From Diphasiastrum complanatum (lineage: Eukaryota > Streptophyta > Lycopodiopsida > Lycopodiales > Lycopodiaceae), in contig CM055108.1 in assembly GCA_029204225.1 (NCBI GenBank), positions 22,926,326 through 22,990,325 of the forward strand: 64,000 bases of DNA, in the 5' to 3' direction. The notes under the pieces are model-generated. The model was given only the letters and a program-made list of their open reading frames with translations. It did not search any database and was not told where the DNA came from. Shown here piece after piece: positions 6,725 to 57,521 of the stretch. Every line of letters begins with the position of its first letter. The first letter of the stretch is position 1. The translations under genes were made by a program, and so were the position numbers.

Positions 6725-7313
6725 TCTTGTGTTTCAGTTTATGAAAGGATCAGCCATCTTTAGCAAGGATTTGGAGGAGTTACCAATGCTAGAGCATGCT
6801 AGATTGATCTCTACTCAAAAATCAGCATTTTTGCATGTGTAGAATTGATCTTTTGTAGGTCAAAACTCAATATAGGGTTATATACTTGATCAATTCCGAT
6901 TTCACACTTGGTTTACTGGATTTAGATGATATTTGGTGCATTAGGAAGGTCTCATTGGAGTCTACAAGAAGATATACCAAGTTTCTAGAAATTGCATGTA
7001 GAATTTGAGATATTCAATTTTTTGTTATTTTGTCAAAACCCTAATTTTGATTGGATCTCTAGTTTGTGAGGTTACTGAACTTCATTTGAGTGTATTTCAA
7101 TCTTAGGAAGTGGCAAGAATCATTAGATTGAGGATAGATCATAGGTTGATCAAGATTTCACTATTCTATGTGTCGATTTTCTAGTTAGAAGTGCTAGAAG
7201 AGATTTGAGAGGTTCCATATCTTTGTGATTTCTTCTTGAGTTCATTTTTTGACATTCAAGAGATTGCTTTGTGCATTGGAACAGGTTGAAAGAGAAGATC
7301 AGGTCATTGCTAC

Positions 7314-8591: not shown

Positions 8592-8657
8592 TCCATTTTT
8601 AGCAAGTATTGGTGCTAAAAAACTAGTCTTGTGAGGGCGAGCTAGAAGCTAAGTTTT
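8545..8657 (+). other. inserted copy of a Copia PBS and leader inside E1 pol
   Basis: At 8545-8557 a second TGGTATCAGAGCC occurs inside the coding region. The following hundred bases resemble the leader just after the PBS of the element at 62295 (shared order: PBS, CCAAGT, a GCTT...ATTGAT(G)ATC phrase, then A(G)C/AAG...ATTGGTGCTA, then GGGCGA). It brings an in-frame stop and shifts the frame between protease and integrase. The right border is approximate. Confidence 0.75.
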
Positions 8658-8668
8658 GGTGAGGGGAT

Positions 8669-10210
8669 TTGATTCAAACTTGTGTTATTGCTAACCAAGT
8701 TGGATGTGTTGCAAGGGAGCAAATTTCTATTCAAGAGGTTTGGCACAAAAGGATGGGACACCTCAACTTCAAGTCATTGGAGGTAATGGCAAGGAAGAAG
8801 GTTGTGATTGGTCTTCCAAGCTCCTTAGGTAATGACAAGCATGTTTGTGAGTCTTGTGCTTTGTCTAAGTCACATAGACTACCTTATACTAGATCTATTT
8901 CTAGATCTACAAAGCCTTTTCAACTTGTACATTCGGATATTCATGGATTTACTACAACTAGCAATAGTGGAGCTAAGATGTATGTAACATTCATTGATGA
9001 TTTTAGTAGATTTTGTTGGATCTATCTACTAAAGAGCAAGGATGAAGTGTATGATGTCTTTTTCAAGTTCAAGAATGCAAGGGAGAACCAATTTTCCACA
9101 AAGATCAAGTGCTTGAGAGGTGACAATGGTGGTGAGTACATATCTAACAAGTTCAAGGCCTTTTGTGATGAGCATGGGATCAAGAGGGAGTATACAACAT
9201 CAAGGACTCCACAACAAAATGGAGTGGCTGAAAGGAAGAATAGGACTTTATGTGAAAGTGCTAAAGCTATGAGGTTAAGTGCTAATCTTGACAAACCATT
9301 TTGGGATCAAGCTTTGTTGTGTGCCAATTTCTTGTGCAATAGGTGGCCGAGTGCTATTTTGGATGGAAGGACACCTTTTGAGATGCTATTCAAGAGGAGG
9401 CCGAGTGTCAACTTTCTAAGAACCTTTGGATGCACATGCTATGTCAACATTACTCTTGATGATAGGACCAAGGAGGATCCATCTTCAAGAAGAGGTATTT
9501 TTGTTGGATATAGTGAGGTGAGTAAAGCCTACAAGGTTTACATTCCTTCTACTAACAAAGTGATTGCTGGTAGAGATGTCATTTTTTATGAGGGAAACAT
9601 TCCAAAGGTGTCTTCAAGCATGATTGATGGTAAAGTAGATGGTTCTAACATTCTTGATGTTGATGAGAAGGATCCTACTTTGGATGGTGGTGATGATGGA
9701 CCTTCATCAAGTCAAAATCCAAGGAGAACATCAAGAGAAAGACAAGTACCTTGGATCCAACCAATGGATCTTCAGTATCGATCTCTTATGAAGAATAGAA
9801 CATCTTTTAGAAGATCTTCTTGTGTACATGGAGCTATGCAAGTGGATGGATGTTATCTTGCTGTAAAGTCAAGTAATGGATCTGGAAAACAAAGTTTGTT
9901 CAATGACTTTGATGGTCAAGTTGAAGATCAAGAGGTTGATCTCAAAGTGCTTCAACTAGTCAAAAGGGAAGTTGGCAATTTGGAGCTAGTCAAGAGCATC
10001 AAAGGAGAGGTAATTGGCAAAGGTGTTATGGATCTATTTTTGCAGCATATTGAAGAATCAAGTAAGGTCAAAGGAGCAGCAAGGAAGTGTTGTTCAAGTT
10101 TACTTTACTTGTTCTATCTCATGTTTGAGCTATTTCATGTGGATGTGTGCAAATTGTCAAGATATGGACAAACTAGCTACATTGTCTTGCAATATCTTAA
10201 GTTGTACTAG
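8669..10210 (+). pseudogene. E1 integrase, followed by a non-Copia tail
   Basis: The frame is open from just after the inserted leader and has no ATG at its start, which fits a broken polyprotein. The HHCC zinc domain is clear (WHKRMGH at about 25-31, CESC at about 60). The DDE core is present: HSD at about 90, RGDNGGEY near 152, and AERKNR near 188. The Copia IN tail follows (FGCTCYV, FVGY, SRDV-like) to about residue 330. After the NPRRTSRERQVP linker (about 9720-9760), where RT should begin, similarity to Copia stops. The enzyme would join cDNA to chromosomal DNA. Confidence 0.9.
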
Positions 10211-15178: not shown

Positions 15179-17191
15179 ATGGCATCTATAAATGCATATC
15201 TTTTGGATACTAATGAAAGGCTCAACAAAACTAACTATTCCATATGAAAAGTTAGAATGGAATCCATCATGATCATGCAAGATCTGATGGAAATTGTAAA
15301 TGGTAAGGAGGATGAACCTATTCATCCTCAAGAAAAAGCCAAATACATCAAGAGGTTCAATGTTGCACTACATTGCATAAAAATGAATGTTGCAAATGAA
15401 CTCTTAAAAGAGGTAGGAGATTGCACTTCAGCTCAAGATGCTTGGGAGACTTTGCAAAAGGTCTATGAATCCAAGAACCAAACTAGAATGTTAGCTTTGA
15501 AGAATCAAATCTACAGAAGTTATCAAAAGAAAGGAGAGAGTGCACATACTTTTGTCCTAAGAGTAAAGGAATTGAACAAAGAGCTAGCCTTTATAGGTGA
15601 TCCTATCAAGGATGAAGAGCTTGTTCAACTCATATTGAATGGACTAAGCTTTGAATTTGACAATTTGGTTCAGGGATATGCAATTATGGGTAAGCTACCC
15701 ATACTTGAAGAACTCCAAGGCACACTCATGGCCGAGGAATCAAGAAGGAGCCAAATGCAAGAGAGAATGGATAGGCTTTCCATCCAAGGTGGAGATGACC
15801 AAGCTCTCTTCACCAAAGGCAAAGGCAAGTCCAAAGGCAAAGGATCAACATTCAAGAAGTCTACAAAGCTTGAGGATCAAGAAGGACCCTCAAAGGCATC
15901 TCCATCAACCACCAAAGTCAAGAAGGACAAATCAAAGGTGAAGTGCTACTATTGTAGCAAGATGGGGCATTATGCCTCGGAATGCTTCAAGAGGAAGCAA
16001 GATCAAAGCCAAGCCAACATGAGCAAAGAGGAGGAGGAGGAGAGTTCACATGAGGACTCTCTCATGATGTCCATATTTTCTTCAACAAGCTTCAAAGGAG
16101 AAGATCCTTGGTGGATTGACTCGGGTGCTAGTTCACACATGACTAGTAAAAGGGAGTTTTTCTCTTCTCTCTTATCTTATGATGGACCTATAAAGTCTAT
16201 CTATACAGCAAATGATGAAGCTTGTAAGATTGAAAGAGTTGGTAGCATTCCCCTTTGCTTAGGATCTTCCAAAAAGATCAACATAGAAGGTGTTTTGTAC
16301 ATTCCTACAATAACAAAGAATCTACTAAGTGTTGGCCAAATGGTAGACAATGGTTTCAATGTTGACTTTGCTTCAAATGAATGTTTCATCAAGAAGAAGG
16401 GTAAGATAGTGGCTAAGGGCACTAGATTTGGCAAACTTTATAAGTTGGATGCATTTGTGGATACTAATGTTGTCATGTTGGCCGAGAAGAGCAAGATATC
16501 TACCTTTACTTTATGGCACAAAAGACTTGGACATGTCAACTCGGGTTCCATGGAGGCTATGATCAAGGAGGAGTATGCTTTAGGCCTACCAAGGTCTATT
16601 GGGAAGGAAGACAAGGTTTGTGAAGCTTGTGCCTTATCCAAGGCACATAAGAAGGTGTTTCCTAACTCCATCACAAAGTCATCTCATCCTCTTGAACTCA
16701 TACACTCGGATGTGCACATTGCTAGCACCAAATCTAATGGAGGTTCATCCATGTTTTTAACCTTCATTGATGACTACTCAAGATATTGTTGGGTGTTCTT
16801 ACTTTCCTTCAAGCATCAAGTATTTGATACTTTTGTAAAGTTCAAGTTGTTTGTGGAAAAGCATCATAATCATAGCATCAAGATTCTTAGAAGTGACAAT
16901 GGTGGAGAATTCATCTCCAATGAGTTCAAGGCCTTTTGTGAAGAGGAAGGGATCAAGAAAGAGACTTCTTGTCCTTACACTCCTCAACAAAATGGAGTTG
17001 CTGAAAGAAGGAATAGAACATTATGTGAATGTTCTAAGGCTTTAAGATTAGATGCTTGTTTGCCCAAATCCTTTTGGGGTGAGTCTCTTGTATGTGCAAA
17101 ATACTTGATGAATAGGGTGTCTTGCAAAGCAATTGAAGCAAAACTTCTTATGAGATGCTGTATGGAAAGAAACCCAATCTTAATCACTTGA
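15179..17191 (+). pseudogene. E2 gag-protease-integrase
   Basis: The natural ATG is at 15179 (MASINAYLL), in the position seen in related gags here, but codon 23, normally the conserved Trp of the SIWKVRMES motif, is TGA at 15245-15247. The frame then stays open from 15248, and the next ATG is 15257. Counting from 15257: gag to about 225, zinc knuckle CYYCSKMGHYASEC near 230, protease WWIDSGASSHM near 288 with an intact DSG, HHCC zinc domain from WHKRLGH near 419, and integrase D-D-E at about 484, 547 and 579. A one-base loss near 17145 throws the frame into a stop at 17189. Confidence 0.93.
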
Positions 17192-19146
17192 AAGTTTTTG
17201 GGTATATATGTTATGTGCATGTGCCATTGGAAACAAGAACCAAGGAGGATCCATCTTCCACAAGAGGGATCATGCTTGGATATGCAAGCTCAAGCAAGGG
17301 CTACAAAGTCTATCTCCCATCCTTGAAGAAATTTGTTGTTTCAAGAGATGTCATCTTTGATGAACATCATATGCATATGCTTGAAGAAGGCTCAAGTGCT
17401 CCAACAATCAAGAAGAAGATGGCCGAGGAGCAAGATCTTGGTTTTGAGGAGGAGCTCATGGAGGAGCAAGCACCAAACCCACCTATCACACCAAGGAGAT
17501 CTTCAAGGGCAAAAGTGGAGCCATCAAGGCTTACATATCAAGGCAAACGACAGCAAGTTGAGGGTATCTCATCCACTTCTTATGCTTTATCTAGTTTTGA
17601 AGAACCGTCTAATGTTGAAGATGCATTGAACTCCAAAGAATGGTATAAAGCTATGTTGGATGAGTATGATGCCTTGATTGAGAATGAAACTTGGTTGCTT
17701 GTTGAAAGACCTCAAAGGAATGTAATAGGATGCAAGTGGGTCTTCAAGCTTAAGTTGAATGCAAATGGGAGTGTTAACAAACATAAAACAAGATTAGTTG
17801 CAAAAGGTTATGCTCAAGAGAGAGGGATAGACTATGAGGAAACTTTTGCACCCGTGGCCAAGATGGTCACAATAAGGCTAATCATTGCACTTGCATCACA
17901 TTTTGGATGGATTCTATGTCAAATGGATGTCACTAATGCTTTCTTGAATGGTTTTTTGGAAGAGAATATCTATATGGAGCAGCCACAAGGGTTCATCAAG
18001 CATGGAATGGAGAACAAAGTATGCCATCTCCAAAGAAGCATCTATGGCTTGAAGCAAGCCTCGAAATCTTGGAATTCAAGACTACATTGCTATCTTATTT
18101 CACTTTCTTTTGTTCAGAGTGAATATGATCCCACTCTTTACATTAAGTTTGATGATGTTGGTATTGTACTTTTACTCATTTATGTAGATGACATCATCAT
18201 TAGTGGAAATAGTGTTGATGGTATTGAAAAAATCAAGATAGATCTATCCTTAGAGTTCAAGATGGTAGATCTAGGGTGTCTTCACTTCATCTTAGGCATA
18301 GAAGTACTTAGAAGGTCTGATTTTATCTTTATAAGTCAAGTAAACTATGCTCAAAGTCTTTTGAAGAAGTTTAAGATGGAAGTATGCAAAAGTGTTGACA
18401 CACCAATGGAGCAAGATGTAAAAGTGCCAAATGAAGATGATGAAAGATCCTTCATGGACATCACTTTGTTTAGGCAACTTATAGGTTCCTTAATGTGGAT
18501 CACTATAACTAGACCGGATCTTAGCTTTAGTGTATGTAGGTTGAGCCAATCCATGCAAAAGCCATTGAATATCCATTGGAAAAAGGCTAAGAGGACTCTA
18601 AGATACATCTTGGGTACATTGGATTTTGGGATTCTATATAGAGGAGATGTGATTAACCTTCATGCATTTAGTGATTCAGATTTTGCAGGGGACAAGAGGG
18701 ATAGGAAATCAACAAGTGCCTATTCAACTTTCATAGGAGAAGGTGTGGTTTCATGGCTTTCAAAAAGGCAAGAAACTATATCTCTATCTTCAACCGAGGC
18801 CGAGTACAAAGCTTTGACAACCACTACAAAGGAGGTACTTTGGATCAAGAGATTATTGGTGGAGCTAAAGATCATGGATTCAGAGGAGGCACCAATCATC
18901 TACAATGACAATATATCAGCCCAACACCTTGCATCTAACCCAATCTTCCATGCAAGATCTAAGCACATTGAGATATGCCATCACTTTGTGAGAGAAATGG
19001 TGCAAGCCATGGAGATTGCTTTGGAGCATGTTCCAAGCAATAAATGTGTAGCTGATCTACTTACTAAACCACTTCAAAAGACACATTTTATGAAGTTCAT
19101 ATCATCACTTGGAGTGATTAGTAAAGCAATGATTGAACCAAGCTAG
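17155..19146 (+). pseudogene. E2 integrase tail, reverse transcriptase and RNase H
   Basis: Continues the polyprotein in another frame after the one-base deletion. The integrase tail (VFGYICYV, MLGY, SRDVIFDE) covers residues 1-75, followed by an acidic/Ser linker. RT starts near 160 (W..A...E..AL..N.TW) and has the YVDD active site at about 343-346. RNase H begins near 505 (SDSDFAGD) and has SSTEAEYKAL near 546. The domain is full length with no internal stop, so RT/RNase H itself is intact. The ATG at 17155 is internal and not a real start. The product would copy RNA into cDNA inside the gag particle. Confidence 0.93.
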
Positions 19147-29779: not shown

Positions 29780-30061
29780 CAATTGATGAGCCATTTGTTC
29801 CTAAATCTATTTGGCTAGCTATCTGCAAAAAGGAACCATTGGCAAAAGTGGAAGAAAGCCAAAGAACCTATAAAACCCTGAGCTAGGGTTTTAGATTGCA
29901 AAACTATGGATCTTTCAATATAGAAGTATTCAATGTTGTAACGCCCCGCTAGCACGACTCAGTATGTAAGAGGTTGAGGGCGACCGTGGACCAGTGAGGG
30001 CGAGAGATCAAACTACTTTATAGCTGCCATAGCTCCAAGGGAGTTCATAAGGGTTTCACAA

Positions 30062-30956
<895 letters not shown>

Positions 30957-30977
30957 GTGCTGTTTCACGCAATTAGG

Positions 30978-33035
30978 ATGGCCAACATCAATGAGGCAAT
31001 TTTGGGAAATGCAAGCAAACTTGGTGAGGCTTCCAACTACAACATCTGGAAGTTCAAAATGAAGAGCATATTGATGGATAAGGAGTTATGGGAAATTGTT
31101 GCAGGCATAGAATTGAGGCTGAACACCACTCTTGGAGACATGAGGGCTTTTGACAAGAAGGTGCAGAGAGCATTGTCATTGATCAATCTTTTAGTGAAAG
31201 ACCATGTAATCACCCATATTAGTGATTCCATGACAGCTTGGGGGCTTGGGAAGCTCTTAGAGCGCAATTTTAAACTTGCAATCCCTCGAGCAGAGGGTCT
31301 ACAAATGTTTGTGAGCAGCATTTCCTCGAGGGAGAGATTGCCTACCTTTGGAGACTTGCACGAGATCATGTTGTAGGAGGAGCAACGTCGAGAGGTAGTG
31401 AAGTCAAGGCAAACTCCACAGGAGGATCAAGCATTGCTTGCCAAGAACAAGCGAAAAGGTTGGAAAAGGATTCCAAAGAAGACCAAGGATGATGAGGATG
31501 AGGGAGAGTCATCATCAAAGCCAAAAAAGAAGAAAAAGAGCAAAAGTTATTATTGCCATAAACCTGGTTATTGGGCACGCGACTGCTACAAGAAGAGAGC
31601 GGACATAAAGGTGGAAAAAGTGAAACAATAGGGCAATATTGCCAAAGATGGTGGGGAAGATGATGAGACAAGTGTCTTCTCAGCGACATTGGCATTCTAG
31701 TTTGATGATGGTGCTAGGTGGTTTGTATATTCAGGTGCCACGAGACATATGACCGGGAAACGTGATTGGTTCGAGAGCTTCTCACCAATCAATGATGGGG
31801 ACAAGGTCACACAAGCCAATGGGGAGGAATGCCAAATCCAAGGCGTCTGCAATGTACCTGTGCAGTTTCTTGATGGTAAGGTCAAGAATATTCCCAATGT
31901 GCTTTATGTTCCTAGACTCAAAAAGAGTTTGCTTTATGTTGGTGTGATGGAAAATAAACATTTGAAGGTTGAATTTCTCAATGATGGATGTCTAATGAAG
32001 GATATGGACCACAACTACAAAGTGGTGGCAAAAGGATGCCGGGATATAAGTAACTCTGGCCGCTATAAATTGAATGTTGCAAATCTAGGTGAACATGGTT
32101 TAGCCACCTTGATAACAATACAATCTAAGTTTTGGCACAAAAGATTAGGCCACTTGAACTATAGGATCCTGAGATTGATGGTGAAGCTGAAGATGGTGAT
32201 TGGATTACAAACATTACAGGATGATCATCACTTTATAATGGAAAAGCATCATAGGGAGACGTTCAAGAAAGGAGAAGCTACAGGAGCCAAGAAACCACCT
32301 AAACTCATTCACAGTGACTTGTGCGGCCCAATGAAGGCCATGTCGATGGGGGGAGCTTATTATTTTATGACTTTCATAAATGATTACTCTAGAAGGACAT
32401 GGATTTATTTCTTGAAGAAGAAATCTGATGCTTTTGCTCAATTCGAGAAATTCCAACTGGATGCACGAATCAAAGTGCTAAGATTAGATAGATCGGACAA
32501 ACTCAAATCAGATGATTTTGAAGACTTTTGCAAGGAGAAAATCATCAAAAGACAATTCACTCAATCACACATGCCGCATAATAATGGTGTAGCAGAAGGA
32601 AAGAATAGAACCATTATGGAGAGCACACGCTCCATGATGAAGCAGATGGGCTTACCAAATTCTCTTTGATCAGAAGCGTGCAATGTGACAACATTCTTGC
32701 AAAATAGAAGTCCCACACTTGCGGTTCCAAATGTGACTCTCGAATAAGCTCTTACGATAATGAAGCCTAAAGTCAACAAGTTTCAAATCTTTGGGTGTAA
32801 GGCTTATGTACATGTGCCAAAGGAGGAGCAAAGCAAGCTTGATGCCAAAGCGATCAAGTGCATTTTTGTCGGGTATGATGAGAAGACAAACGTGTACAAT
32901 TGTTTTGATCTTGTGATGAACAAGATTCACATTAGTAAGGATGTCATCTTTGATGAGATGCATATGTTTGACAAAGAAGACCATGCGCCTAGTGATGATA
33001 GAATCAGGATAACCCTTCGCGTGTATAATGTGTGA
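30978..33035 (+). pseudogene. Copia relic: gag, protease, integrase
   Basis: Gag starts at ATG 30978 (SNYNIWKFKMKSILMDKELWEIV) and stops at 31374. The Lys-rich linker and zinc knuckle (YYCHKPGYWARDC, near 31550) follow. The protease (VYSGATRHMTGKRDW near 31728) has Tyr for the catalytic Asp. Integrase follows: WHKRLGH near 32133, HSDLCGP near 32310, FINDYSRRTW, a decayed LDRSD for RSDNG near 32485, and NNGVAEGKNR near 32580. After a stop at 32669 the tail continues (FGCKAYVHVPKEE, FVGYDEKT, SKDVIFDE) to about 33000. RT is absent. The lineage is distinct from E1/E2. Confidence 0.88.
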
Positions 33036-44119: not shown

Positions 44120-45950
44120 CTTTGGTAGGGGCTCTATATCGGCAGGGATTACTATAGGTTCAGTGACTCAAGCAGCCAGTGTTTTCGGTTGCGAATACTT
44201 GGGGATAATCATGATATCAGGTATTTGAAATATGTCTCTTTTTGGAGTGATCTTGCAGTACTAGATTTCTTTGGACTAGGCGGTGTTTTAGCTTCTGATA
44301 AACTTTTACTACCAGTACTCTTTGGGGATCGAGACAACGTTTTAGATATGATTTTGGTAGTAATTGAGGTTCTGCTTATGAGGAAATATTTTGGTGAGAG
44401 TGTTACCTTCTCAATTCGTCGTCGCAATGGAGGACCTATGTTGGTGGTTCTGGAATAGTTTGATGATCATTTATCATGAAGGGTTCTATTAAAACCATAC
44501 AATACTTGAACCTCATGGATAATGAGGATTTCACACACTGTAAATAGTCACAAAAGTCGACTACAGTTGAAGTATGGATAATCCACACAATCAAGGTTAG
44601 AAGATGAAGCCATACTTATCTCTAGTTCATATCAGAAGGTTGCATCCAACAAATTTCACGTCAGGTTCACCAATGTTAGGGATTTTTCCAATAGGGGATT
44701 GGTCCCACCAGAAAGCCCCAGCGAGTGAAAGGGCCCACACTGCCCTTACGCGAGTGACTCGGGTCTATTACCACTTCCAATCCTGGGGGTCATCCTAATC
44801 ACCCCATACTCCCCAATCAATGAGAGTTTTCTAGGCTCTCAGGAGTATGATTGCAAGGAGATCGATTATTGAGTCCTCAAAGTTCTTCTCAATGTGGTAG
44901 AGTGAGAGAATGATTTCCTGTCATTCTATGAGGTTGGTAGAATATAAAACGTCCTTGAAACCAAGTACCAACTGAACCTTTAGACATGACATGTGATGAT
45001 TCAGAGTAGAAAAATGGTTACATCTCTTGTTTGTTCATAGTCAAGGATTATTGACATGTATATTTTGCTATACTTAATCTGATAATAATTCTGTTGTTCT
45101 GTGTTCAGATTTGTGTTGATATTGTTGAATTCACACGTGTGGGACGCCCTACACATGTACTTTTGATCTCCTAAGCCCAATAATACCATAAAGATCAGAC
45201 TAGCATTGATTGACAATAGGAAAGCTGATCATACAAGAAATATTATTGTGTTACAAGCAAGATCTGTCAACAAAACATAAAATTAAGTGCAATAAACGCC
45301 TCAACTCAGGTAGAGAGAGAAAATGAAAGTACAAAACTCAAGTAGAGAGAGAGGGCACAAAGAGCTTAGTCTCCAAATTTGCATTACACACAAATTTCAT
45401 CATTATCTCAATGAGAGTACATCACATATATATAGATCCATGGACTCTCCTCCTACTTTGAGTTGAATTGGAGGTATGAATCCACCTCTCAAGCTATCTA
45501 GACTTATTCAAGCCACCTCACTATGTCTAATTGTGCCACCTAGTCTTTTCATGCATTAAATGTGGCATGCAAAGTACAAATGGCAATTCCTATGGTAGCG
45601 CGAGTTTCTACTTCTACCTACCTTGAATATTTTATTCTAAGATGGGCTTTACTAACCCAAAACAACTCAATTCATCTTTGGCATTTTTAGGACCCCTACT
45701 AACAACATTAGATAGATTTTTCCAATAATTTGACAGATATTGCTATGTTTTTCTTCATTCTATCTGACTCTCTTGTTGCTCAATCTGGTAATCCATTCTT
45801 AGCAAATTATTATTAGTCTAGCTGTTGATGACTAGTATTTAGTCTTGCCTTTCGTGACTAATTCGCGATTGATTAGCAATCAAGCTCAGTCTAGCTCTGA
45901 GTAAGGCTTCTAATATTCAACACTCAGTCTGGACATATATTATTGCTACC
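44120..45950. other. leader/LTR-like DNA upstream of G2, no gene seen
   Basis: Should contain the G2 leader and 5' LTR (minus strand). A possible primer site, minus strand TGGTGAACCTGACGTG, occurs at about 44656-44672, but LTR ends are not clear. Short open frames here look accidental. Confidence 0.4.
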
Positions 45951-45956
45951 ACTCAG

Positions 45957-46507
45957 GACTTCGAGAAAGACGGCAAAACCAGAGTACTAAAAGTTGATGT
46001 ATGGAAAAAGCTTGATAGTATGATTGCTATTTTAAGAAAAGAAAAATACTCTGATATTGATAAGAAAGTTGTCCAAAGGACTTGTGTCGAGTTTGTTATT
46101 GCAATATCAAAAGCATGGGGAGAGGATCACATCACTCATTACATGGTTAGTATAAAATTTTCAAAATGCTTTCAAATTTTCATATATATTTCAATCCAAA
46201 CATAAGACTAACATTATGATTTTGACATATGCAGCACATACTAAGAGATCATACAATATTTTTTGCAAATACATATGGAAGCTTGAGTGTATGGTCATCA
46301 CAAGGGATGGAGAAGTCACACTGGCAAGCACGAGCGTCATTTCATCGAAATACACAACATGGAGGAACCAATGAAAAACGAAACTACATTTGTCAATTGT
46401 TTCAGTGGTTCTACCGCAGAGTTCAGATTCGACATATAACAAAGTCCACACAATACAACAAGTTTAGAAAAGCATGCAAGTTCATACAAGAAGAGAAAAT
46501 TAGATGA
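45957..46507 (+). CDS. P1: spliced gene fragment of unknown family
   Basis: Two exons with good splice signals: one from an acceptor near 45957 (or the ATG at 46020) to 46145, donor GTTAGT; the second from 46235, after TGCAG, to a TGA at 46507. They join in phase. The protein reads ITHYM then HILRDHTIFFANTYGSLSVW and SSQGMEKSHWQARASFHRNTQ. I recall a similar pattern (T.YMH.L..H...G.L..S.QG.EK.N/H) from uncharacterised, probably transposon-linked proteins of other eukaryotes, but cannot name a family. The N-terminus is not visible. It lies 0.8 kb before the Ulp1-like gene on the same strand, so the two may belong to one mobile element. Confidence 0.5.
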
Positions 46508-46648
46508 CTATTGAGTAGAAGATCATCATTGCTGAGTAGAAGATCATCATGACATGTTCAGAATTGCTTTGCAAATTCATTGAACAAGAGAGGAGAAATA
46601 CCCAATGTAAATGTATTGATTGTATTATACCAAAATACAAAGTGTCAA

Positions 46649-47166
46649 CTATTCATCATCAGATCTTGTATCAGATTCTATGGTAGTATTGTCATGAAGA
46701 AATTCTCTGCTAGCGTATGCATCTAATAGATGTGCATTATCCTTATTTTCACTAAGCTCAATATAAGTGGAATACAATGAATAATGGGAGCTCCTTAAAT
46801 TAACATTCCCATCAGTAAAGCCTAAAATGTTCAAAACATAAGATGTTTTGACAAGAATGATCTTATTTGTCTTAACAAATTTATGTCCTCCTAGATAAAA
46901 TGATAAAGCTTTAACTGCCATTATAAGACTCTCCCCGACTGGGCTCAGCTTGGAATGAGAAATACAGATCTCATTCTTCAAGAAATGCCTAAGATAGTGG
47001 CCCAGTCCACTGTCCCTCTGGAACGAGGATGCGTGTTGTCTGAAACCATCTCGTCTCCAGTAAAATCATCTATTATGAGAGCATCCTGCAATAGGAAATA
47101 TGCTAACAAAAACACATTCAGTGATTGAAAACATTCAAATGCAAGGAAGATTAAACACTTACACAT
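46649..47166 (-). CDS. M1: unrecognised open frames on the minus strand
   Basis: Two adjoining minus-strand frames. 47166-46978 looks like an exon start after TTGCAG near 47090, giving DALIIDDFTGDEMVSDN...DWATILGIS and a stop. 46981-46649 is open for 110 residues (LSPVGESLIMAVKALSFYLGGHKF..., acidic C-terminus) but starts with TTG, so it needs an upstream exon. No family recognised. It would run convergent to P1. Coding status is uncertain. Confidence 0.3.
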
Positions 47167-47281
47167 TCTTCATCATCAGCAGCAACTAGGATGATCAAAA
47201 TAATGACCATGTACTGAAGTGGAATCACTAGTGAAGTGCATTAATGATGGACGAGGGAAGCCCATCTAGGATTAAAATGCC

Positions 47282-48277
47282 ATGAATTCTTCATCGTATG
47301 GTCTGTCTCGCCCATCCTCAGCTATATTTGATAAAGTCTTATTCAGACATTCTTCACCGGTCATAAGACCCTCCTCATCATCAAAATCAATACCAGCAAC
47401 AAGGTCATCTGTCTCAAAATCTACAAAGTTGAAGAATTCGATCAAGGAGAACAATGACAGATTGTCACAGTGTTTGACAAGTGGATTCACACCAGCAACA
47501 AAGTATCTGCTCATACCTTATCATACGAAGTAAGTTATATAAAATGCTTCTTGTTGTTTTATGCATTAACATTGGCATTGTCAATGAAAATAGTTCTCAG
47601 AATTGCAACTAAAGGTATTTCAATCTTATTTTGCAGTGACCACTGGAGTTTAAACCTGATCTCTATTAAGAGATCTGTAAATAATATTATTAAATGTTTT
47701 TGTGTCAAGATGAATTCGACGAGAAATACGCATAAGGATGTGGATATATACATTCCATATCTAAGTAAATATATTCCTACAAACGTTTCCCATTACGTCG
47801 ACTGGCAAATCGTCAGCTTGGAGGTAAACTCTGTCTTTCTTAATAGCATTTTGAAATCAATATTCTAATGAAATATTTTCAATCTAATTCATTTTGTTTC
47901 ACAATTGATTTCTTGTGTGCTGAATTATTTTGCAGTCACCCCAGCAAAATGATTCATTCAGCTGTGGGTGGTACACATTGTACAATGCCAAGTTGTTTTT
48001 TGAGTGGTTCAACCTTCAACAAGATGTTGATATTTCTAAGGTAATAAATTATGTTTATTCTTATTTTGGAATCACGAATAGTTTTCTATTGTGGTGATGT
48101 TATTGGCCATTACTAATACATGAATGTTCTATTTTGCAGTTTACACTTTTTGAGTACACATCAAGCCAGGTGTACAGATTTAGACAAGAAATTATCCTGA
48201 GTATACTGGCTAGGGCAAGGCTTCAGCCTCCCGTTATTGATGATGGTGCAAAGGATGATGTGGTTGTACTAAATTAA
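47282..48277 (+). CDS. P2: Ulp1-type cysteine protease C-terminal domain, four exons
   Basis: Exons about 47282-47529, 47637-47823, 47936-48040 and 48140-48277 have GT...AG borders (GTAAGT donor; TTTTGCAG acceptors) and join in phase. The first ends KYLLIPYHT; splicing adds N then DHWSLNLISIK, placing the catalytic His in the usual Ulp1 setting (IPYH...HW.L.VI). The third has PQQNDSFSCGWYTLYN, with the oxyanion Gln and catalytic Cys. The catalytic Asp, usually in YDS after the His strand, is not evident (FCVKMNS), so activity is doubtful. Ulp1 proteases remove SUMO; related domains also ride in plant DNA transposons. The true start is upstream and unknown: the ATG at 47282 opens a Ser/Lys-rich stretch. 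Confidence 0.72.
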
Positions 48278-48645
48278 GACAGAAAAAATATAGATAACAT
48301 AGAACAAAAATACATGTATAGACTTCATAGAAAAATATACATTGATATATTAAATACTGCTCTAGTTTATGAATTTGGGAGCACAAAATGCATGTACAGA
48401 TGCCCAACTTGGGCTTTCATTTATTGAATGAAAGGGTGTATACACAAATTTTTACTAAAGTTTATTTGAAACTATTGTTTTCCCACAATGGAGATTGTTG
48501 TAGGTAGATCTTTGCAGCACGTTATCAGCTCCTGTCTTTTTTGCATATGTGACATGGCAAATATTAGTGAATGTGCAATTGCAAATGATGACATTTTCTA
48601 TTATTTTGTTCTATTTTGAAATGGCAATAAACATAAAGTACTTAC

Positions 48646-49109
48646 GAGTCTTCCGTTGATGATAATCTGAAATATGTTGGTAGATTGGTTTGTAATAACA
48701 TGAGCTCTGTTATGATAAAATCAAGCTTCCAGTGCTCTTCCACCTCAACCATAGTCAAATATTCCTCATTGTAGATAATGCTTATCTCCATTCGGTTTGT
48801 GTGACCATCTAGTTCAAAGTCTTGATCCAGTGGTAGCCATGTACCTTCAATTTTCTTGTATCTTTGGTAGCTAAATGTGAGACTGAGCATTTTCTTTTCG
48901 ATATGATAACGAAAGATCATTGCGGACTTTTTAATCTTGCATTCTATGTCATTGCTTGTTTTACTATCCCAGCCTTGATCCATGAGATCTGACAAAGTGA
49001 TGACTAGGCACTCTTCACACGTGTGAAGGCCTGTTGGATAGTACACAGCTCGTGGATGTACTTGATCTATAAAGAGATTAACCAAATCAATAACAAGTTG
49101 ATGTGACAT
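48646..49109 (-). CDS. M2: unrecognised 5' exon
   Basis: From ATG 49109, about 155 codons stay open to a strong donor (GTAAGT at 48645). The protein (MSHQLVIDLVNLFIDQ..., CEEC, then beta-rich blocks with EVEEHWKLDFIITELML) matches no family I know. Immediately upstream is the end of a Copia LTR (49126), so its promoter may have been displaced. The following exon is not clear. Confidence 0.35.
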
Positions 49110-49125
49110 TGGCAAATTCTAGTTT

Positions 49126-50156
49126 TGTTGATATTTTCACATTTGTCTTGAGTTTTGATGAATGAAATACATTTGTAAGTTAATGTGCATTACTCTCTGT
49201 AGACAGGCCATACAGGTACTGTCCTCCACACATGTGAGGCCACCCATCCATGTGTTTGATCATTTGATCCATTGCTTAAATCATAGTGTAAAGCATCTAG
49301 ATTAAGATCTAACATCTAGAACTTGATAGATATTTGGATTAAGCAATCAATAACTCTTAATGATTGATAGTACAATCAATGTTTGTCCTTTTTCTTTGAA
49401 AATTGACAAGCTTTGCATGCTAACATCTCTGATTGTTCAAGAATTTGAGAGCTAATTCAAGCAAAAAAGCAGTTAATCACTTTTCTTTACCTGTCTCTGA
49501 AAAGCGTTTGGATCAAAGTGGATAGAAACTGATTTTTCAGGTCAAAATAGAGATTGTACAGAATTCTGGAATTCCACACGTCTGAAAATCAGTGATTTTC
49601 AATCCCTTCTATTTCCTTGCTAGTTGGTCTAAAGATAGTGATGTTATAGCTTGATGAAAAGCTTATGAAGAGTACTTTCCATAAAAATTAATCCCAAATC
49701 AATCTGATGTGTCTATCAAGAGTAATGAGCTCTTAAAGAGGGTAGGGAGAGGTCCAAAATCTGAGTGACCACTTTTTGATTGGATTCAATCTTGCTTGAT
49801 TTTGAACTCATTGTTTTGAGCATCCTACACATGAGACTGAAGGTCAAGACTAAGTTTGATGTTATTGAACACCTTTGAGCCTTCTGAGCATCATTAGTGT
49901 TTTCTTTTGAAGCATCTAACATGTGTCAAAAGTAGAATTCAAACCTTCTAAGTGTCTCAATTCAACTTGAGTGTCTGATCTAGATTATCTTATTTTGTGG
50001 AATATTTGAGATCTATCCCAAATACAGTTGCAAGTTTTTCACATAGGAAGCTAGCACATCCTTGAAAATACCTATAGTGAAAGAGAGTAGCAACATTAGT
50101 CTGATTGGAACAAGCTCAAACATATTATTATCCAATAACTAAGAAGTCTTCACATT
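49126..50156 (+). repeat. E4 LTR and leader remains, Copia
   Basis: Starts TGTTGATATTTTCACATTTG, aligning with the LTR start at 61627 (TGTTAGAATT...TTTTCACATGG, then TTTTGATGAAT). It shares the AGGCC(A/G)TACAG...CACA(C/T)GTGTGA block near 49210-49240 with the later element. The expected TGGTATCAGAGC primer site is missing, so the LTR-leader border is deleted or decayed. Confidence 0.6.
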
Positions 50157-50835
50157 ATGGCATCTGTGAGAGGATATCTCCTAGAAGCAGATGAAAGACT
50201 AAGTACCTCTAATTACTCAATTTGGAAGGTTAGAATGGAGTCTATTTTGATACTCCAGGATGTTATGGACATAGTACTTGGTAAGGAGGAGGAGCCTCAA
50301 GCACAGCTTGAAATACCAAAGTACAAGAAGAGAGCTAGAATGGCTCTACATTTCATTAAGATGAATGTATCTAATGAAATTCTAAGAGAAATAGGATCTT
50401 GCACCACTGCCAAAGATGCTTGGGATGCACTTAAGTCAATCTATGAAGCTAAGAACACTTCTAGAATACTCACTCTTAGGAATCAGATTTTCCAAAGTTC
50501 TCAATGAAGTGAGGAGAGTGCATCAAACTATGTTCTGAGAGTAAAAGATCTTCATAGGGAGCTTGCTTGTGTTGGTGTCACAATCAATCAAGATGAGCTA
50601 GTACAAGTCATTCTAAATGGCTTAATAGATGACTATGAGAATCTTGTTCAATCCTTTGCCATTAAGGAGGAGTTGCCTAATTTAGAAACTCTCCAAGGAA
50701 TTCTCATCTCTGAAGAAGCTAGACAAAGTTATAAACTTTCTAGGATGAACAAACTCGAGCATATTGGAAGTAACAAAGCCCTCTTTGTCAAGGACAAGCA
50801 TAAAGGAAGGAACAAGAACCAGTTTTCTCAATCAT
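50157..50835 (+). pseudogene. E4 gag fragment, Copia
   Basis: Begins MASVRGYLLEADERLSTSNY, then SIWKVRMESILILQDVMDIV, close to the E1, E2 and E5 gags. A TGA at 50505-50507 splits it; the next part resumes in frame (YVLRVKDLHRELACVG, ELVQVILNGL) and ends near 50835, before the zinc knuckle. No protease, integrase or RT follows; a TC microsatellite begins 90 bases later. Confidence 0.9.
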
Positions 50836-50924
50836 GCACAAACTGGAAATCAATAGTAGAATATTTTTTAGAAACAAAACAAAAATCGAATTATAAGCTC
50901 AAAGATCTGATATCCAAGTATTAT

Positions 50925-50926
<2 letters not shown>

Positions 50927-51008
<82 letters not shown>
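50927..51008. repeat. (TC)n microsatellite
   Basis: About 80 bases of pure TC. It lies at the truncated end of the E4 gag. Confidence 0.97.
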
Positions 51009-51010
<2 letters not shown>

Positions 51011-52996
51011 GGACAATTCTTGTGGGGGTTATACTTGTACCATGTATATAGAGATACAAGTGCCTTATTATCATCCATCTAGTCTATGCATGAGTTGGTG
51101 GATGGTATGAGCATGTGCATGGCTAGGACATGTCTCTAACATTGGGAATAATTCTAGTGAGAGCTAAGAGTGATGGCTAGTGATATGGGACATTGGTTAT
51201 CATTCGGGGCTTAATCAAGCATATATGTTGGTGTTAACTGCTGCACTGCACAAGGGCGAGTAGAGAATGACCCTCTGGGTGGGCACTAAGTGGCACTAAG
51301 TGTGTGTTTGTCACTTGGTTTCCTAATAACTAGGTAGAGCTAGAGTGACCATCATTCAAAATGGGGAAATACGTGCGATGTTGATGACAAGGCTGTTGTA
51401 ACTATACTTTGTTAAACATAGATTACATCCAAAAGGAGAAACACATGCACTTGAAGATAGTTTCCACGTTGGTTCCGTACAAAACTTTGAAATGAATTGC
51501 ATGTCTCTCTCGGTAAAAATCAAACGCGTTAACTCATGGAGGCGAAATTTTAAGAAGATGAGAGCTTGTGCATGTGCATGGTCTCAAAATACTCACAACT
51601 TTATTCTTTATTATATTTACAATGTTGAATTTGCATGTCATTAAAGTACAAGAGTCAAGACTCCAAGGCTTTAGTTGCCAATGCCCATGTATGAGTTACA
51701 TATTATTTAGTGTATGTTTTTAAATGTAAAATCATAGAACTTTAAAGCAATTCTTGCCTATTAAAGTAAGTCAAATTCTAGACATTTTTTTTGTGTGTGT
51801 CAGTGCTTGCGGAAAAAAAAAATTTCAACCTAACACAAAGCCTATTAAAAATTTTTTTGTAGGCTTTTTTGATGGGCCAAAAGCCTACGATTCTATACGG
51901 AGAAGGCTTAAAAAAAAAATCTTTCAAGAAGGCTTTGATAAAAGTTTGGCTAACTGTTCGGTAAAGTCAACAAGCATAAGAATGGAATCGACATCTTTTT
52001 CCAAAAATCGACTGTGTAAATTTTTTTTTGGAAATTAACTTTTAAAAAATCGACAACATTTTTTAGATGGAAGCAAAATATTGTTGAATGTTTTCAAATG
52101 CAAGAAATTTCTGTGTAATAAAGTAGGTGGATTCATATAAACCTTATGTTACATAGCTTTATTAAGCCAATAGACTTCTAAAAAATCACAAGAAATTAGG
52201 GTGATGCAATAATCAATATCAAAATGTTAAAATTTTACATTTTGATTTTAATAATGATGAAGAAATACTTGTATGATTTTTGTATTTTAAAAAGAAGTAA
52301 AATGAAATGCATTTGTTAACACTTTATTGTGGGCCACTCAAATAATGTATTAAAGCCTAGAGCCATACTAATCATTTCTAAAACCTTAAACCAAAAAAAC
52401 TTTACATGAAAATAAAAACCTATAATTTAATTTTTGATAGGCTCATAACCTATAAGTGCTCAAACATGTAGGTTATGAGAACCTATAAAAATTTTCTTAG
52501 TAGGTGATTTAAAAATCTGATAGGCTTTTTTCAATGGATTATAGGTTTTTGGCGAGCAGTGGTGTGTGTTGATGTTTTCATAAGCTTCTTAGATTAGCTA
52601 AGAACTTAAATTTTTTTTTTTTGTAAAGCAAGTTCAAAAGAATGATCTAGCTCTTTTTGGAAAAGTGCATGTTTTTCTATGTTTTCCTCCCGTATTTTGT
52701 TTAGCCTGCTAAGTTTTTCCCTTTCAAGTTTAGAACCTTCATTTGAATTACCTTATATTTAAAATTTGCTATTAAAATCATAAATCCTTTTTGAATTTTA
52801 AATGATTAATTTGTCACCACCTGCAAAATAAATCTCTATTCAAAGCTAAAATATTTTTCAATTTAAAATTATTAATTTCTTGCTATTGGCCAACATTGGT
52901 CCACTAAATTTGAAATGAATCAACGAAGTTTGCCACAACACCAAGACTAAAAAAGATGGTAGTGGGAGTTATAAAACTTGAAACTACCTCGTGGCT
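51009..52996. other. no supported gene
   Basis: AT-rich, many A/T homopolymers. 51830-52560 repeats phrases such as AGGCTTTTTT, AAAGCCTA and ACCTATAAAAATTTT in both orientations, possibly a small non-coding transposon, but I could not define terminal repeats. Confidence 0.35.
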
Positions 52997-53742: not shown

Positions 53743-54335
53743 TATTTAAAGCCTCTAGTAAGTCTTAATGGCGATGACAGATACTACATTTTAGGGTCGG
53801 AAAGGGCGACAGACAGTGGAATCCGGATTCTGGATTCAAGGTTGTCAATTACTGCTCCGGGAATGAAGTGTGAGAGTCTCGAAAATCGAGACCCAGATGA
53901 AGTTGTTGTTTAGCTGCCAGCTGCTGCTCTCCTCTGTTTCCCCGTCTTGCAGCTCTGATACTTGCTCTGACCTTGGCTCATCGTACTATGGCTGTCTTTT
54001 TGATACTGTAGTTAGACTTTGATGCTTTGATTCAGCTGACAGACCAAAATAGAACTTATGTACAAGTTGCAATCAGTCCGCGAGCTGCTATATGTGTGTT
54101 TGATTTTGATACTTTGATTCATCAGGATTCAGAAAGCAAAAGAGGAATTGCGTACAAGTAAATAGTTGCACTTGATCAGCCCAGGAGATGCTGAATGTGT
54201 GCTATGATGGTGGCACTTCATCAGTCTGGGAGACGCTAAATGTGTGTTACTATGGTAGTGATGCTTAAATTTAGCTAGAATTTAAGTGCATAATAAGGTG
54301 GCCCATCTGATCTACTGGTGGCTCGGTTATTGATT
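53743..54335 (+). promoter_or_regulatory. putative promoter and 5' UTR of the LRR gene
   Basis: A TATA-like TATTTAAA lies at 53743-53750. Between it and the start codon there are several upstream ATGs and an imperfect duplication (ATCAGCCCAGGAGATGCTGAATGT / ATCAGTCTGGGAGACGCTAAATGT, near 54176 and 54221). An intron in this leader is possible but not provable. Confidence 0.45.
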
Positions 54336-57300
54336 ATGCAAATTATGAGGGTTGTGTTGCCCGTAGTAGTCCTGCTGCACTTGGCAAGTTTGGGAAATTT
54401 TCTACCAGAGTTGCTGCATCATCGTCTGCAGAGCAACGCCCAAGTGAGTGTCCTGTTTTATGAAGGCCAGGTCGACAAAGAGCATGCGGATAATATCTCC
54501 GTAAAAAATGAAGCCGTGATTGCTTGGACCGAAGAGCAGAGGGGTAGTGGCTCGGAGGCTACAGACAAACGCTCTTTAGATTTAACAGATTCTGTTGGAA
54601 GAAACGATGTGCAGGATGCGGAAATGCCAACATCTCTGAAGCGTGGCAGATTCCGTCCAGGCGGAGGTTGGAGAAGAGGGGCAGGTCGTTCAATGCTGCA
54701 GACACAAGGGAGCGTCGACACTGATCGGACTGCGCTGATGGAGTTTAAACTAGGCATTTCAGGAGACCCAAACGGAACGCTCTCAAACTGGGATACAAAC
54801 AATGGTGACTTTTGTCAGTGGACGGGCGTCACATGCAATAACCTCACGAAACGAGTTGTGGGTCTGAACTTGACACATTGCGGGCTTTCAGGATCCATCA
54901 GCTCTCTGCTTGGCACTCTCAACTTCCTCGCTAACCTCACCTTGGCAAGCAACAATCTCACCGGAATTATTCCCCCTGAGCTTGGACAAAGCAGCACTCT
55001 TTCAGTTTTGGAATTATACGACAATAAACTTACTGGATCGATTCCCCCTGAGCTTGGGCAATGCAGCGCTCTTTCCACTTTGAGATTGTACCAGAATAAC
55101 CTTGCTGGAACGATTCCTCCTGAGCTCGGGCAATGCAGCGGTCTTTTGATGTTGGAACTGTACCAGAATAACCTTGTTGGGTCGATTCCGAATGAGCTAG
55201 CGCAGTGCAGAAATCTCACTACCGTGGATGTTGGAAACAATCATCTTACAGGACAAATTCCTCCTGAATTTGGGCAACTCCACAATCTTGTCACTCTTCA
55301 TTTTTATTCCAATCAATTGACGGGCTCCATTCCTTCCACCATAGGAAATTGCACGAATCTGGTGAACTTTGCTGGCCTCAATAACAGCCTCGTCGGTGAG
55401 ATCCCCGCAGCACTGGGTAACTGCACCAAGCTCGAAGGGTTCGTTTTTGGTTACAATAATTTGAGTGGAATCATACCTCCCGTGTTTGGGCAGCTGCAAA
55501 ATCTCCAAGTGCTCTATCTTATGAACAATTCGCTTACGGGAGAAATCTCGTTTCTGGGGAATTGCAGCAGAATAGAGCAAATCCACATGGAATTCAATCA
55601 GTTTACCGGACCTCTCCCTTCTGATTTTGGAGAATGTGCAAATCTTTCACAACTATACATCAGGAACAATGAGTTGTCGGGTGTAATTCCACCGGCTCTT
55701 GGAAACTGCTCCAAACTCTACAATGTCGGACTCAGTGCCAACACATTCAGTGGCACCATCCCAGCATCACTGGGGAATTGTCCTATGCTCCAAAGCTTTC
55801 AGCTTGATGATAACAATCTGACTGGCGTTATACCTCCTGAATTGGGCAGATTACAAAATGTTGAGTATTTTTATCTTTGGGGTAACAATCTGGAGGGGAC
55901 TATCCCTGCTTCTATAGGGAATATGACAAGCTTGAAACAGCTACACCTTCAAAATAACCCGCATCTCACTGGGAGTATACCTTCTGAATTCGGTATGCTC
56001 CCTAATCTGCAGCAAATAATTCTTTATAAAGCCAGCATCCAAGGAAACATCCCTGACGCTTTAGGGAACATCTCCTCTCTCCAGTATCTTATCCTCAACG
56101 ACAACAAGCTTAATGGTACCATACCTTTTTCTCTGGCTCGATTACAAAATCTCATCTCATTCGTGGTCCAAAACAATCAGCTGACCGGATCCATTCCCAG
56201 TGTACTAGGGCGGTTGAGCTCTTTGCAGACACTTTCCTTAAAGAGCAACAAACTCCAAGGAATGATTCCTTCAACTTTGGGTGGCCTCACAAATCTCACG
56301 TCGTTAGATCTTTCCGACAATTCTTTCGATGGTGCAATACCGCGGGAGGTGGGAAATTGGCAGCTGCTGGAGACGATGGTGCTGTCTGGCAACAACTTGT
56401 CAGGTACAATTCCAGATAGTCTTGGTTATTGTTCAGCTCTTGTAACTATAGACCTGTCAAACAACAAACTCAGTGGTGGGATTCCTCTAACTCTTCAGAA
56501 TTGCACCAATATGACACGATTACGGCTTGAAAATAACCATCTTGGAGGAGACTTCTCAGTGCAGCTTAATGTAGGACAGTTCAAATCGCTTGAGATACTG
56601 TCCATCACCAACAACTCATTCACTGGAAGGATCCCAAAATCTCTCACCGACTGCATGAACCTTACCTTTGTTGATCTCAGCAGAAACCTACTCAGCGGAA
56701 CGTTACCTAACTATAACACGGCATCATTGACCAAGTTGCGCGTGCTTGTGTTGAGATACAATCAGCTGGAGGGTCCAATTCCAACCTGGATTTGGAATCT
56801 CACTTCGTTGCAAGTTCTTGACCTATCAATTAATAAGCTGACAGGGGACTTCCCCAGCGGTACTACAGGCTTGAGCAACCTATTAGGCTTCATAGATATT
56901 AAGGCAAATGCAATCAGATTGCTGGACAGCTCCACCCTATACGACCAAAACTTGCAGATCACTGTTAAAGGTATCGATCTTGTTTTCACGGACGTTCTAT
57001 TGCTTTTAACCTCCCTTGACTTGTCAGGAAATATGCTCCGTGGTCATATCCCTCAAGATTTAGGGTTACTGAAACAGCTCTTGTACCTAAATCTTTCTCG
57101 TAACAGTTTCACAGGCAATATTCCTTCAACTCTTGGCAAGATATTTCCTCTAGCCTCTCTCGATCTATCCAGAAATCAGCTCTATGGTGAGATCCCACAA
57201 AGTTTCTCATTCTTAACTAGTTTAGCGAAAATAAATTTCTCCAATAACAACCTCTCTGGTCCAATCCCACAAAGCAGGCAGTTAGATACCTTCTCCGATT

Positions 57301-57521
57301 CTTCTTACTCTCCTGGAAACCTTGGTCTCTGCGGCCATCCACTTACTAGGCTGTGCGCAGTCATTCCTGAAGAAAACGCTACACATTCTTATGAAGGTAT
57401 CAAATCCTTCTCTGATCTTGTTTCCTTACCTGGTTTCGCTTTGGGTATATGCATTGGCTTCTCTTCTGTGGTGCTTCTCTTCGGATTCAAGCGTGGCCGT
57501 GCTTCAAGACGGCAATTTTAA
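54336..57521 (+). CDS. LRR receptor-like protein (RLP)
   Basis: An intact single-exon frame of 1061 codons. I start at ATG 54336 (the frame is open earlier, but only from GTG); ATG 54345 is an alternative. Order: signal peptide (VVLPVVVLLHLASLG), an unusual charged segment of about 100 residues (25-128, ending RFRPGGGWRRGAGR), then a plant N-terminal LRR cap (DRTALMEFK...NW...FCQWTGVTC, 130-168). About thirty 24-residue LRRs follow (LxxLxLxxNxLxGxIPxxLG), then an island region near 840-890 (YDQNLQITVKG), four more LRRs, a Cys pair (GLCG...LC), one transmembrane helix (about 1027-1051) and a 10-residue basic tail. Lacking a kinase, it is an RLP, expected at the plasma membrane as a ligand-binding co-receptor in defence or development. 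Many NxS/T sites suit an extracellular glycoprotein. Confidence 0.93.
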   Translation: MQIMRVVLPVVVLLHLASLGNFLPELLHHRLQSNAQVSVLFYEGQVDKEHADNISVKNEAVIAWTEEQRGSGSEATDKRSLDLTDSVGRNDVQDAEMPTSLKRGRFRPGGGWRRGAGRSMLQTQGSVDTDRTALMEFKLGISGDPNGTLSNWDTNNGDFCQWTGVTCNNLTKRVVGLNLTHCGLSGSISSLLGTLNFLANLTLASNNLTGIIPPELGQSSTLSVLELYDNKLTGSIPPELGQCSALSTLRLYQNNLAGTIPPELGQCSGLLMLELYQNNLVGSIPNELAQCRNLTTVDVGNNHLTGQIPPEFGQLHNLVTLHFYSNQLTGSIPSTIGNCTNLVNFAGLNNSLVGEIPAALGNCTKLEGFVFGYNNLSGIIPPVFGQLQNLQVLYLMNNSLTGEISFLGNCSRIEQIHMEFNQFTGPLPSDFGECANLSQLYIRNNELSGVIPPALGNCSKLYNVGLSANTFSGTIPASLGNCPMLQSFQLDDNNLTGVIPPELGRLQNVEYFYLWGNNLEGTIPASIGNMTSLKQLHLQNNPHLTGSIPSEFGMLPNLQQIILYKASIQGNIPDALGNISSLQYLILNDNKLNGTIPFSLARLQNLISFVVQNNQLTGSIPSVLGRLSSLQTLSLKSNKLQGMIPSTLGGLTNLTSLDLSDNSFDGAIPREVGNWQLLETMVLSGNNLSGTIPDSLGYCSALVTIDLSNNKLSGGIPLTLQNCTNMTRLRLENNHLGGDFSVQLNVGQFKSLEILSITNNSFTGRIPKSLTDCMNLTFVDLSRNLLSGTLPNYNTASLTKLRVLVLRYNQLEGPIPTWIWNLTSLQVLDLSINKLTGDFPSGTTGLSNLLGFIDIKANAIRLLDSSTLYDQNLQITVKGIDLVFTDVLLLLTSLDLSGNMLRGHIPQDLGLLKQLLYLNLSRNSFTGNIPSTLGKIFPLASLDLSRNQLYGEIPQSFSFLTSLAKINFSNNNLSGPIPQSRQLDTFSDSSYSPGNLGLCGHPLTRLCAVIPEENATHSYEGIKSFSDLVSLPGFALGICIGFSSVVLLFGFKRGRASRRQF

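Follow-up and report, generated by a model that had tools for sequence, protein, structure and literature searches.

Transposable elements carrying an Ulp1 domain, and others carrying histone sequences, have been described separately. An Ulp1 domain is known in CACTA elements of grapevine and rice (CACTA-ULP, EnSpm/CMC superfamily; PMC2528002) and in Ginger elements (PMC2836005), and Ulp1-carrying MULEs with Kaonashi (KIU)/VANC genes escape silencing (PMC13317346). On the histone side, fungal hAT elements amplified H3 sequences that mostly decayed (PMC6710886), and a Helentron with histone gene fragments has been reported (PMC4067079). Further transposons bear genes acting on epigenetic marks (PMC12730594). 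A histone H3-Ulp1 fusion borne by a transposon is a combination for which we found no description in the open-access literature searched with narrow phrases.

We analysed a stretch of 64,000 nucleotides from Diphasiastrum complanatum, called here the window, and compared it with copies from the genome of the same species (1.745 Gb, 5,176 contigs), from which every copy compared was taken. A sequence-only reading of the window had drawn two spliced genes on one strand, P1 (45957-46507) and P2 (47282-48277). Both proved to lie in the remnant of a DNA transposon with terminal inverted repeats (TIRs), whose features are, in window positions:

45901..48998, + strand: TIR DNA transposon remnant, one copy, left-truncated at 45901 and right-truncated at 48998, with an internal 2425-bp deletion at 47441/47442
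45902..46145, + strand: transposase gene, 3' part of the exon before the last (P1 exon 1), in frame with a 245-aa open frame of copy C8 holding AGDLKTLKCMYN...YC; donor GTTAGT
46235..46507, + strand: transposase gene, last exon (P1 exon 2), with SSQGMEKSHW (candidate catalytic Glu) and the stop
46649..47065, - strand: ORF2, C-terminal exon, a 138-aa open frame whose equivalents are open in C6, C8 and C13; no Pfam match above cut-off
47166..47441, - strand: acidic exon of ORF2, its left limit approximate, broken by stops in the window copy and open in C8 and C13
47441..47442, no strand: deletion junction, with 2425 bp gone, among them the start of ORF2 and the histone H3 domain (window against the C46 copy, L002+L028)
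47442..47529, + strand: H3-Ulp1 fusion gene, remaining 3' portion of exon 1 (...KYLLIPYHT), part of P2 exon 1 as first drawn
47637..47823, + strand: H3-Ulp1 gene, exon 2 (Ulp1 DHW; no catalytic Asp)
47936..48040, + strand: H3-Ulp1 gene, exon 3 (SPQQNDSFSCGW, catalytic Gln/Cys region)
48140..48277, + strand: H3-Ulp1 gene, exon 4 and stop
48642..48998, - strand: ORF4, surviving part, resembling a 163-aa open frame in C6; no Pfam match above cut-off

The limits of the remnant come from alignment to other genomic copies, in which the matches break off at 45901, 47441/47442 and 48998, and in which the element runs on beyond 45901 to the left and 48998 to the right. With positions 45957-48277 as query (40 of 4,324 first-look candidates scored), 44 matches of 91-100% identity were obtained, the window among them, and none of the 43 others (91-99%) extends past 47441. 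For positions 47442-49400 (40 of 4,458 candidates scored), 40 rows besides the window itself were 91-98% identical, and 34 of the 41 rows end at 48998. At seven further places, on C46, C18 (two), C5, C9, C12 and C2, both halves occur in the same order and on the same strand, with 2.3-2.5 kb between them. Over 6 kb that include the flanks, the C46 copy is colinear with the window and 98.5% identical, with an additional 2,425 bp between the halves that corresponds to the interval between c46 positions 2985 and 5411. Since the halves recur together at seven places and the colinear C46 copy holds the extra segment, P1 and P2 form one unit, and the copy in the window has lost an internal segment. 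P1 and the genuine portion of P2 are what is left of a single DNA transposon, present in the window as a dead, truncated copy. The earlier proposal of a single mobile element is borne out by the inverted-repeat ends, the very many copies and the seven other places where the two are neighbours. That two spliced genes on the same strand should be separate host genes brought together by chance has a negligible probability, as each half is present in at least dozens of copies with ends and order in common; separate single-copy host genes are excluded by the repetition of both halves side by side.

The counterpart of positions 44458-50500, 98.5% identical with its flanks and free of the deletion, lies on a 175-kb contig (C46) and represents either an alternative haplotype or a duplicate of recent origin. 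Immediately left of the remnant, positions 45737-45898 resemble a repeat in the C5 context (86%), so that the left truncation abuts another repeat. Reading by eye also revealed a single 1074-aa open frame with leucine-rich repeats, a receptor-like protein, at 54297-57521 (+), a Copia-type retroelement with two long open frames at 15248-19146 (+), and further Copia-like fragments at 7290-10210, 30918-32669 and 50139-51110. Long serine-leucine dipeptide runs, encoded by simple CT-type repeats that inflate open frames, occupy 30045-30464 (-) and 50508-51110 (+).

Open frames in copies C6, C8 and C13 outline four genes, and better-preserved copies would thus read, from left to right, a transposase-like gene (+) ending in P1, ORF2 (-), the H3-Ulp1 fusion represented by P2 (+) and ORF4 (-). 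In the window, the ORF4 open frame continues into flanking DNA (48642-49118). The two P1 exons join in phase, from the donor GTTAGT at 46145 to the exon at 46235-46507, as had been predicted with good splice sites; the start placed at 45957 did not hold, because the coding sequence of the element begins at the truncation, 45901.

The transposase-like protein presents the motif order VLKLDES, LAGDLKTLKCMYN...CLYC, SSQGMEK, with a composite spacing of D1-96-D2-20-CxxC...E. Both Asp residues and the Glu occur in all six thirty-kb contexts scored, where SSQGMEK is likewise present in six of six and the CxxC is intact in three, C8 and C18 being near-duplicates among the six. A DDE transposase with a CxxC about 20 residues past the second Asp (D-x19-CxxC) carries the signature of the CACTA type (CMC). 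P1 is probably the C-terminal piece of a likely CACTA-like transposase, an assignment based on motif order and element structure. The 579-aa composite matched zero Pfam families up to E 10, the Mutator-like (MULE/Kaonashi) and KDZ transposase profiles among the models it failed to match, and the separate pieces gave no Pfam match above cut-off. Pfam does hold a KDZ model. As no Pfam model matches the composite, the transposase is not filed as a proven CACTA/EnSpm (CMC) member; the idea of a transposase C-terminus in P1 gained support from motifs and structure and none from profiles. Viral contigs scanned with P1, with the middle of the transposase and with the H3-Ulp1 exon returned no relative.

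Elsewhere in the genome the element ends in inverted repeats of ~35 bp (CATTAGAGGAGTT...), beginning CATTAG, termini that we take to resemble the CACTA type. The left end has an identical start, CATTAGAGGAGTTCTCAATATCAAAAAGACCC, adjoining unrelated DNA in four of the six thirty-kb contexts (C8, C6, C5 and, with a few differences, C21), and an inverted copy of the end was present at nine of ten right-end places examined, the exception being L029, which stops short. No TIR was seen in the left-end windows of L038, L031 and L035, and of three more copies with both halves, the C5 copy alone showed both ends; on C1, no second TIR was present at 28.60 Mb and only a broken one at 33.82 Mb. A 31-base end pattern allowing up to two mismatches had 1,004 forward and 1,045 reverse hits, against 0 and 0 for the reversed-pattern control. 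The resulting 2,049 hits are end-like sites, not insertion events, and suggest a successful family. Copies with both ends reach about 9.4-9.5 kb. For instance, a TIR pair at C1:48368841-48378291, paired by position, spans 9.45 kb with TCA on both sides, and the C6 copy measures 9.53 kb including an insertion of ~0.7 kb. At C1:60101101-60110112, two TIRs 9.0 kb apart enclose the H3 exon, with a 340-aa frame without stop (C1:60.104 Mb), and in the C6 copy, too, paired TIRs flank the H3 exon.

At seven places with both TIRs (C6, five pairs on C1 and one on C5), paired by position only, the flanks showed a 3-bp repeat (TCA) once, a 2-bp repeat (CT) once and none in five cases, which is little above chance; an 8-bp repeat was not seen by eye in any of these seven flank pairs. 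Of the features that the first reading had proposed to check, aligned copies supplied the common ends and inverted repeats, and not the target duplications (3 bp in one of seven). CACTA/EnSpm (CMC) elements have a 2-3 bp target site duplication, and the TIRs here begin with a variant, CATTAG, and not with CACTA. Zisupton has an 8-bp duplication, and the termini of PlavakaB, CATCA..TGATG, are similar in type to ours (PMC12730594). CACTA-ULP shares with this element the TIRs of a DNA transposon, a transposase of the DDE type and an Ulp1 domain, whereas a Tnp2 domain is reported there and the transposase here matches no Pfam model; moreover, Ulp1 here sits in a separate gene fused to histone H3, and the main text of PMC2528002 does not contain the word "histone".

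The second gene had been drawn as 47282-48277. This model was rejected: its start, 47282-47441, is antisense to the acidic frame of minus-strand ORF2, and it spans the deletion junction. The first exon was thus chimeric, with only 47442-47529 belonging to the real gene, and the exons at 47637-47823, 47936-48040 and 48140-48277 stood. The splice sites of these three are retained in nearly all of 14 copies, window included, the exceptions being one acceptor in L036 and one in C6, which also lacks the first Ulp1 exons. Against Pfam Peptidase_C48 the window exons scored E 1.7e-7 and 31.7 bits (cut-off 20.7). In the natural copy L038 all four exons are open and encode one 479-aa protein without stop, in which H3, a proline-rich linker and Ulp1 follow one another; hmmscan of this protein identified Histone (PF00125) at 8.3e-22 and Peptidase_C48 at 3e-9 (37.5 bits). 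The companion gene suggested by the first reading is indeed an Ulp1 gene, although a plain protease it is not, since it encodes an H3-Ulp1 fusion whose H3 part has been deleted in the window.

The Ulp1 His and Cys signatures, and the missing catalytic Asp, had already been noticed in P2 and were recovered across copies. The DHW motif is present in 12 of the 13 copies with that exon, the remaining one having a stop at W, and the His is found in 13 of 13. The catalytic Asp, its position judged by eye and alignment, is absent from all 13 copies holding the exon, window included, and of the 14 copies with the Cys exon, 12 retain the catalytic residue, while L037 and C13 have Tyr instead. An Ulp1 domain lacking Asp argues against a standard SUMO protease. 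A domain that keeps its His, mostly its Cys and no Asp might act as a SUMO binder and not as an efficient SUMO-cleaving enzyme.

The H3 domain lies 5' of the Ulp1 exons, inside the stretch deleted from the window. That of the C6 copy matches the Pfam core histone (PF00125) at 6.8e-26, and the best-listed PDB matches of the domain are histone H3 (best E 7e-22). We found the domain, 85-100% identical, at all 150 places scored of 6,880 first-look candidates; within this sample 106 places have a stop and 44 have none inside the match, and for 23 of the latter the open frame reaches 300 aa or more. The transposon H3 is identical to H3.1 at 51 of 103 positions and to a plant CENH3 core at 43 of 89, and its loop 1 is one residue longer than in host H3. 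A small tree with ten H3-type sequences did not distinguish an H3 from a CENH3 origin.

The tail begins MDRRK-x-TRRDFFS in the 11 of 11 copies that cover it (x being Q, or a stop in L034), and MDRKKQTRRD in L067. It keeps R2-K4-Q5-T6-R8 of host H3 (L073), and the host K9 is replaced by Asp. Before the first helix, seven of the 11 copies have no other lysine, and L029, L030, L031 and L034 have one extra each (L029 and L030 are near-duplicates). Beyond R8 the tails are not alignable residue by residue, and the loss of K27 and K36 is concluded from the lack of lysines there. With no counterpart of K9 or K27 in its tail, a nucleosome with the transposon H3 could carry K4 marks and would not carry K9 or K27 silencing marks.

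Other H3-like sequences were met in the genome. A second repeat family (L066, L068, L069, L070, L071 and L074, on contigs C10, C17, C13 and C9) encodes another divergent domain of the H3 type (KWLQDIRSYQKSVKFLIPRAPF...), in which about half of the residues are those of H3. In a separate listing more than 100 places, of which a part was read, have only 43-56% identity to H3. Locus L072 (C7:61150850-61151330), which begins MARTKQIARPKST and has one stop, is nearest to the transposon H3 in the small tree; it may represent a variant of the host, a pseudogene or a different element.

The histone and the Ulp1 gene might be passengers, taken up from the host and carried without use. Capture of H3 by transposons is known from the hAT elements of Dothideomycete fungi (PMC6710886), which are DNA transposons of ~9.5 kb with H3 coding sequence in hundreds of copies, as here; their H3 is mostly truncated and RIP-damaged, putatively active copies in Pyrenophora being the exception, and they have 8-bp target site duplications. 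The decay of most scored copies of the present element, with a stop at the 106 H3 places mentioned above, speaks for passenger capture, and among 13 copies within the family of the window the in-frame pN/pS of 0.61 did not fall below the values for the other frames (0.50 and 0.55), so this comparison shows no selection. The comparison between lineages speaks against it. Over 336 aligned codons, L038 and L067 gave a dN/dS of 0.258 (0.187 in the H3 part and 0.326 in the rest), whereas the remaining two frames gave 0.86 and 1.21; both sequences are free of stops, and none of 2,000 random placements of their changes yielded so few non-synonymous ones. The fusion has been conserved as a protein while element lineages diverged, as measured for one pair of lineages with a dN/dS of 0.26. 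Besides, its H3 is only about half-identical to the canonical one, yet L038 keeps the whole 479-aa fusion open. We therefore consider an unused passenger unlikely; the element differs from the fungal hAT in having a divergent H3 fused to Ulp1 and conserved between two lineages, and in a transposase-like protein with no hAT profile match.

The element of L067, on which the dN/dS of 0.26 depends, appears to be a mosaic: the transposase region shares 93.8% identity with that of the window, while the H3-Ulp1 region stands at a dS of 0.32 from L038. In this one element (L067 and L075, C8:18.043-18.048 Mb), a diverged H3-Ulp1 region stands beside a window-like transposase region, and an exchange of modules between element lineages is possible.

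A conserved fusion could also serve transposition itself, as part of the transpososome, directing insertion into certain chromatin by way of histone chaperones, or behave as CENH3 does at centromeres. The similar closeness of its H3 to the CENH3 core and to H3.1, together with the longer loop 1, is compatible with such a cofactor, and Ulp1 domains occur in several transposon groups, where a role in transposition has been suggested (PMC2836005). The copies, however, are dispersed, with contigs C1 to C23 all represented among the 150 listed H3 places, and we regard a targeting or transposition cofactor as improbable. Two dense TIR clusters on C1 are amplified segments, because the fetched members have near-identical flanks (8 of 8 in one cluster and 2 of 2 in the other), which also disposes of the centromere or hotspot targeting that these clusters had been read to indicate. 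In the stretches 64.97-65.71 Mb and 98.4-98.6 Mb of C1 (L047-L056), element ends recur every tens of kb with near-identical flanks, that is, as large amplified segments with an old insertion.

The explanation we prefer, at a probability a little short of even, is a D-D-(CxxC)-E transposon whose H3-Ulp1 protein opposes silencing by the host. The motif order, the TIRs and the copy number suggest a transposase that cuts and pastes the element. The fusion protein would enter or dock on nucleosomes through its H3 fold and would bring a SUMO-binding or deSUMOylating domain to chromatin. Silencing of the element might then be countered because no silencing marks are carried, because SUMO is handled, or by both. 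A narrower form, tentative and on the doubtful side, is that of an anti-silencing histone, in which the selfish element would encode an H3 variant that retains the K4 context and lacks the K9 and K27 sites of host H3, joined to a SUMO-protease-like domain so as to build, or dock on, nucleosomes closed to silencing marks of the host.

Two described systems come near to the preferred explanation in function. Kaonashi (KIU)/VANC of MULEs is likewise a transposon gene with an Ulp1 domain, tied there to escape from silencing, but transposase and element structure differ, and "histone" occurs 0 times in the main text of PMC13317346. The TET/JBP transposons, such as PlavakaB and KDZ, have in common with our element a chromatin-related gene of their own (PMC12730594); theirs encodes an enzyme that acts on DNA methylation and not a histone, and Ulp1 is mentioned 0 times in the main text.

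Transposons that counter silencing and the capture of H3 by fungal hAT elements are already known. A transposon-borne H3-Ulp1 protein under selection would, if true, be a different strategy, in which the element supplies the chromatin substrate itself. It would make testable whether silencing based on H3K9 and H3K27 can be evaded with a histone unable to carry those marks, and whether SUMO takes part in this contest.
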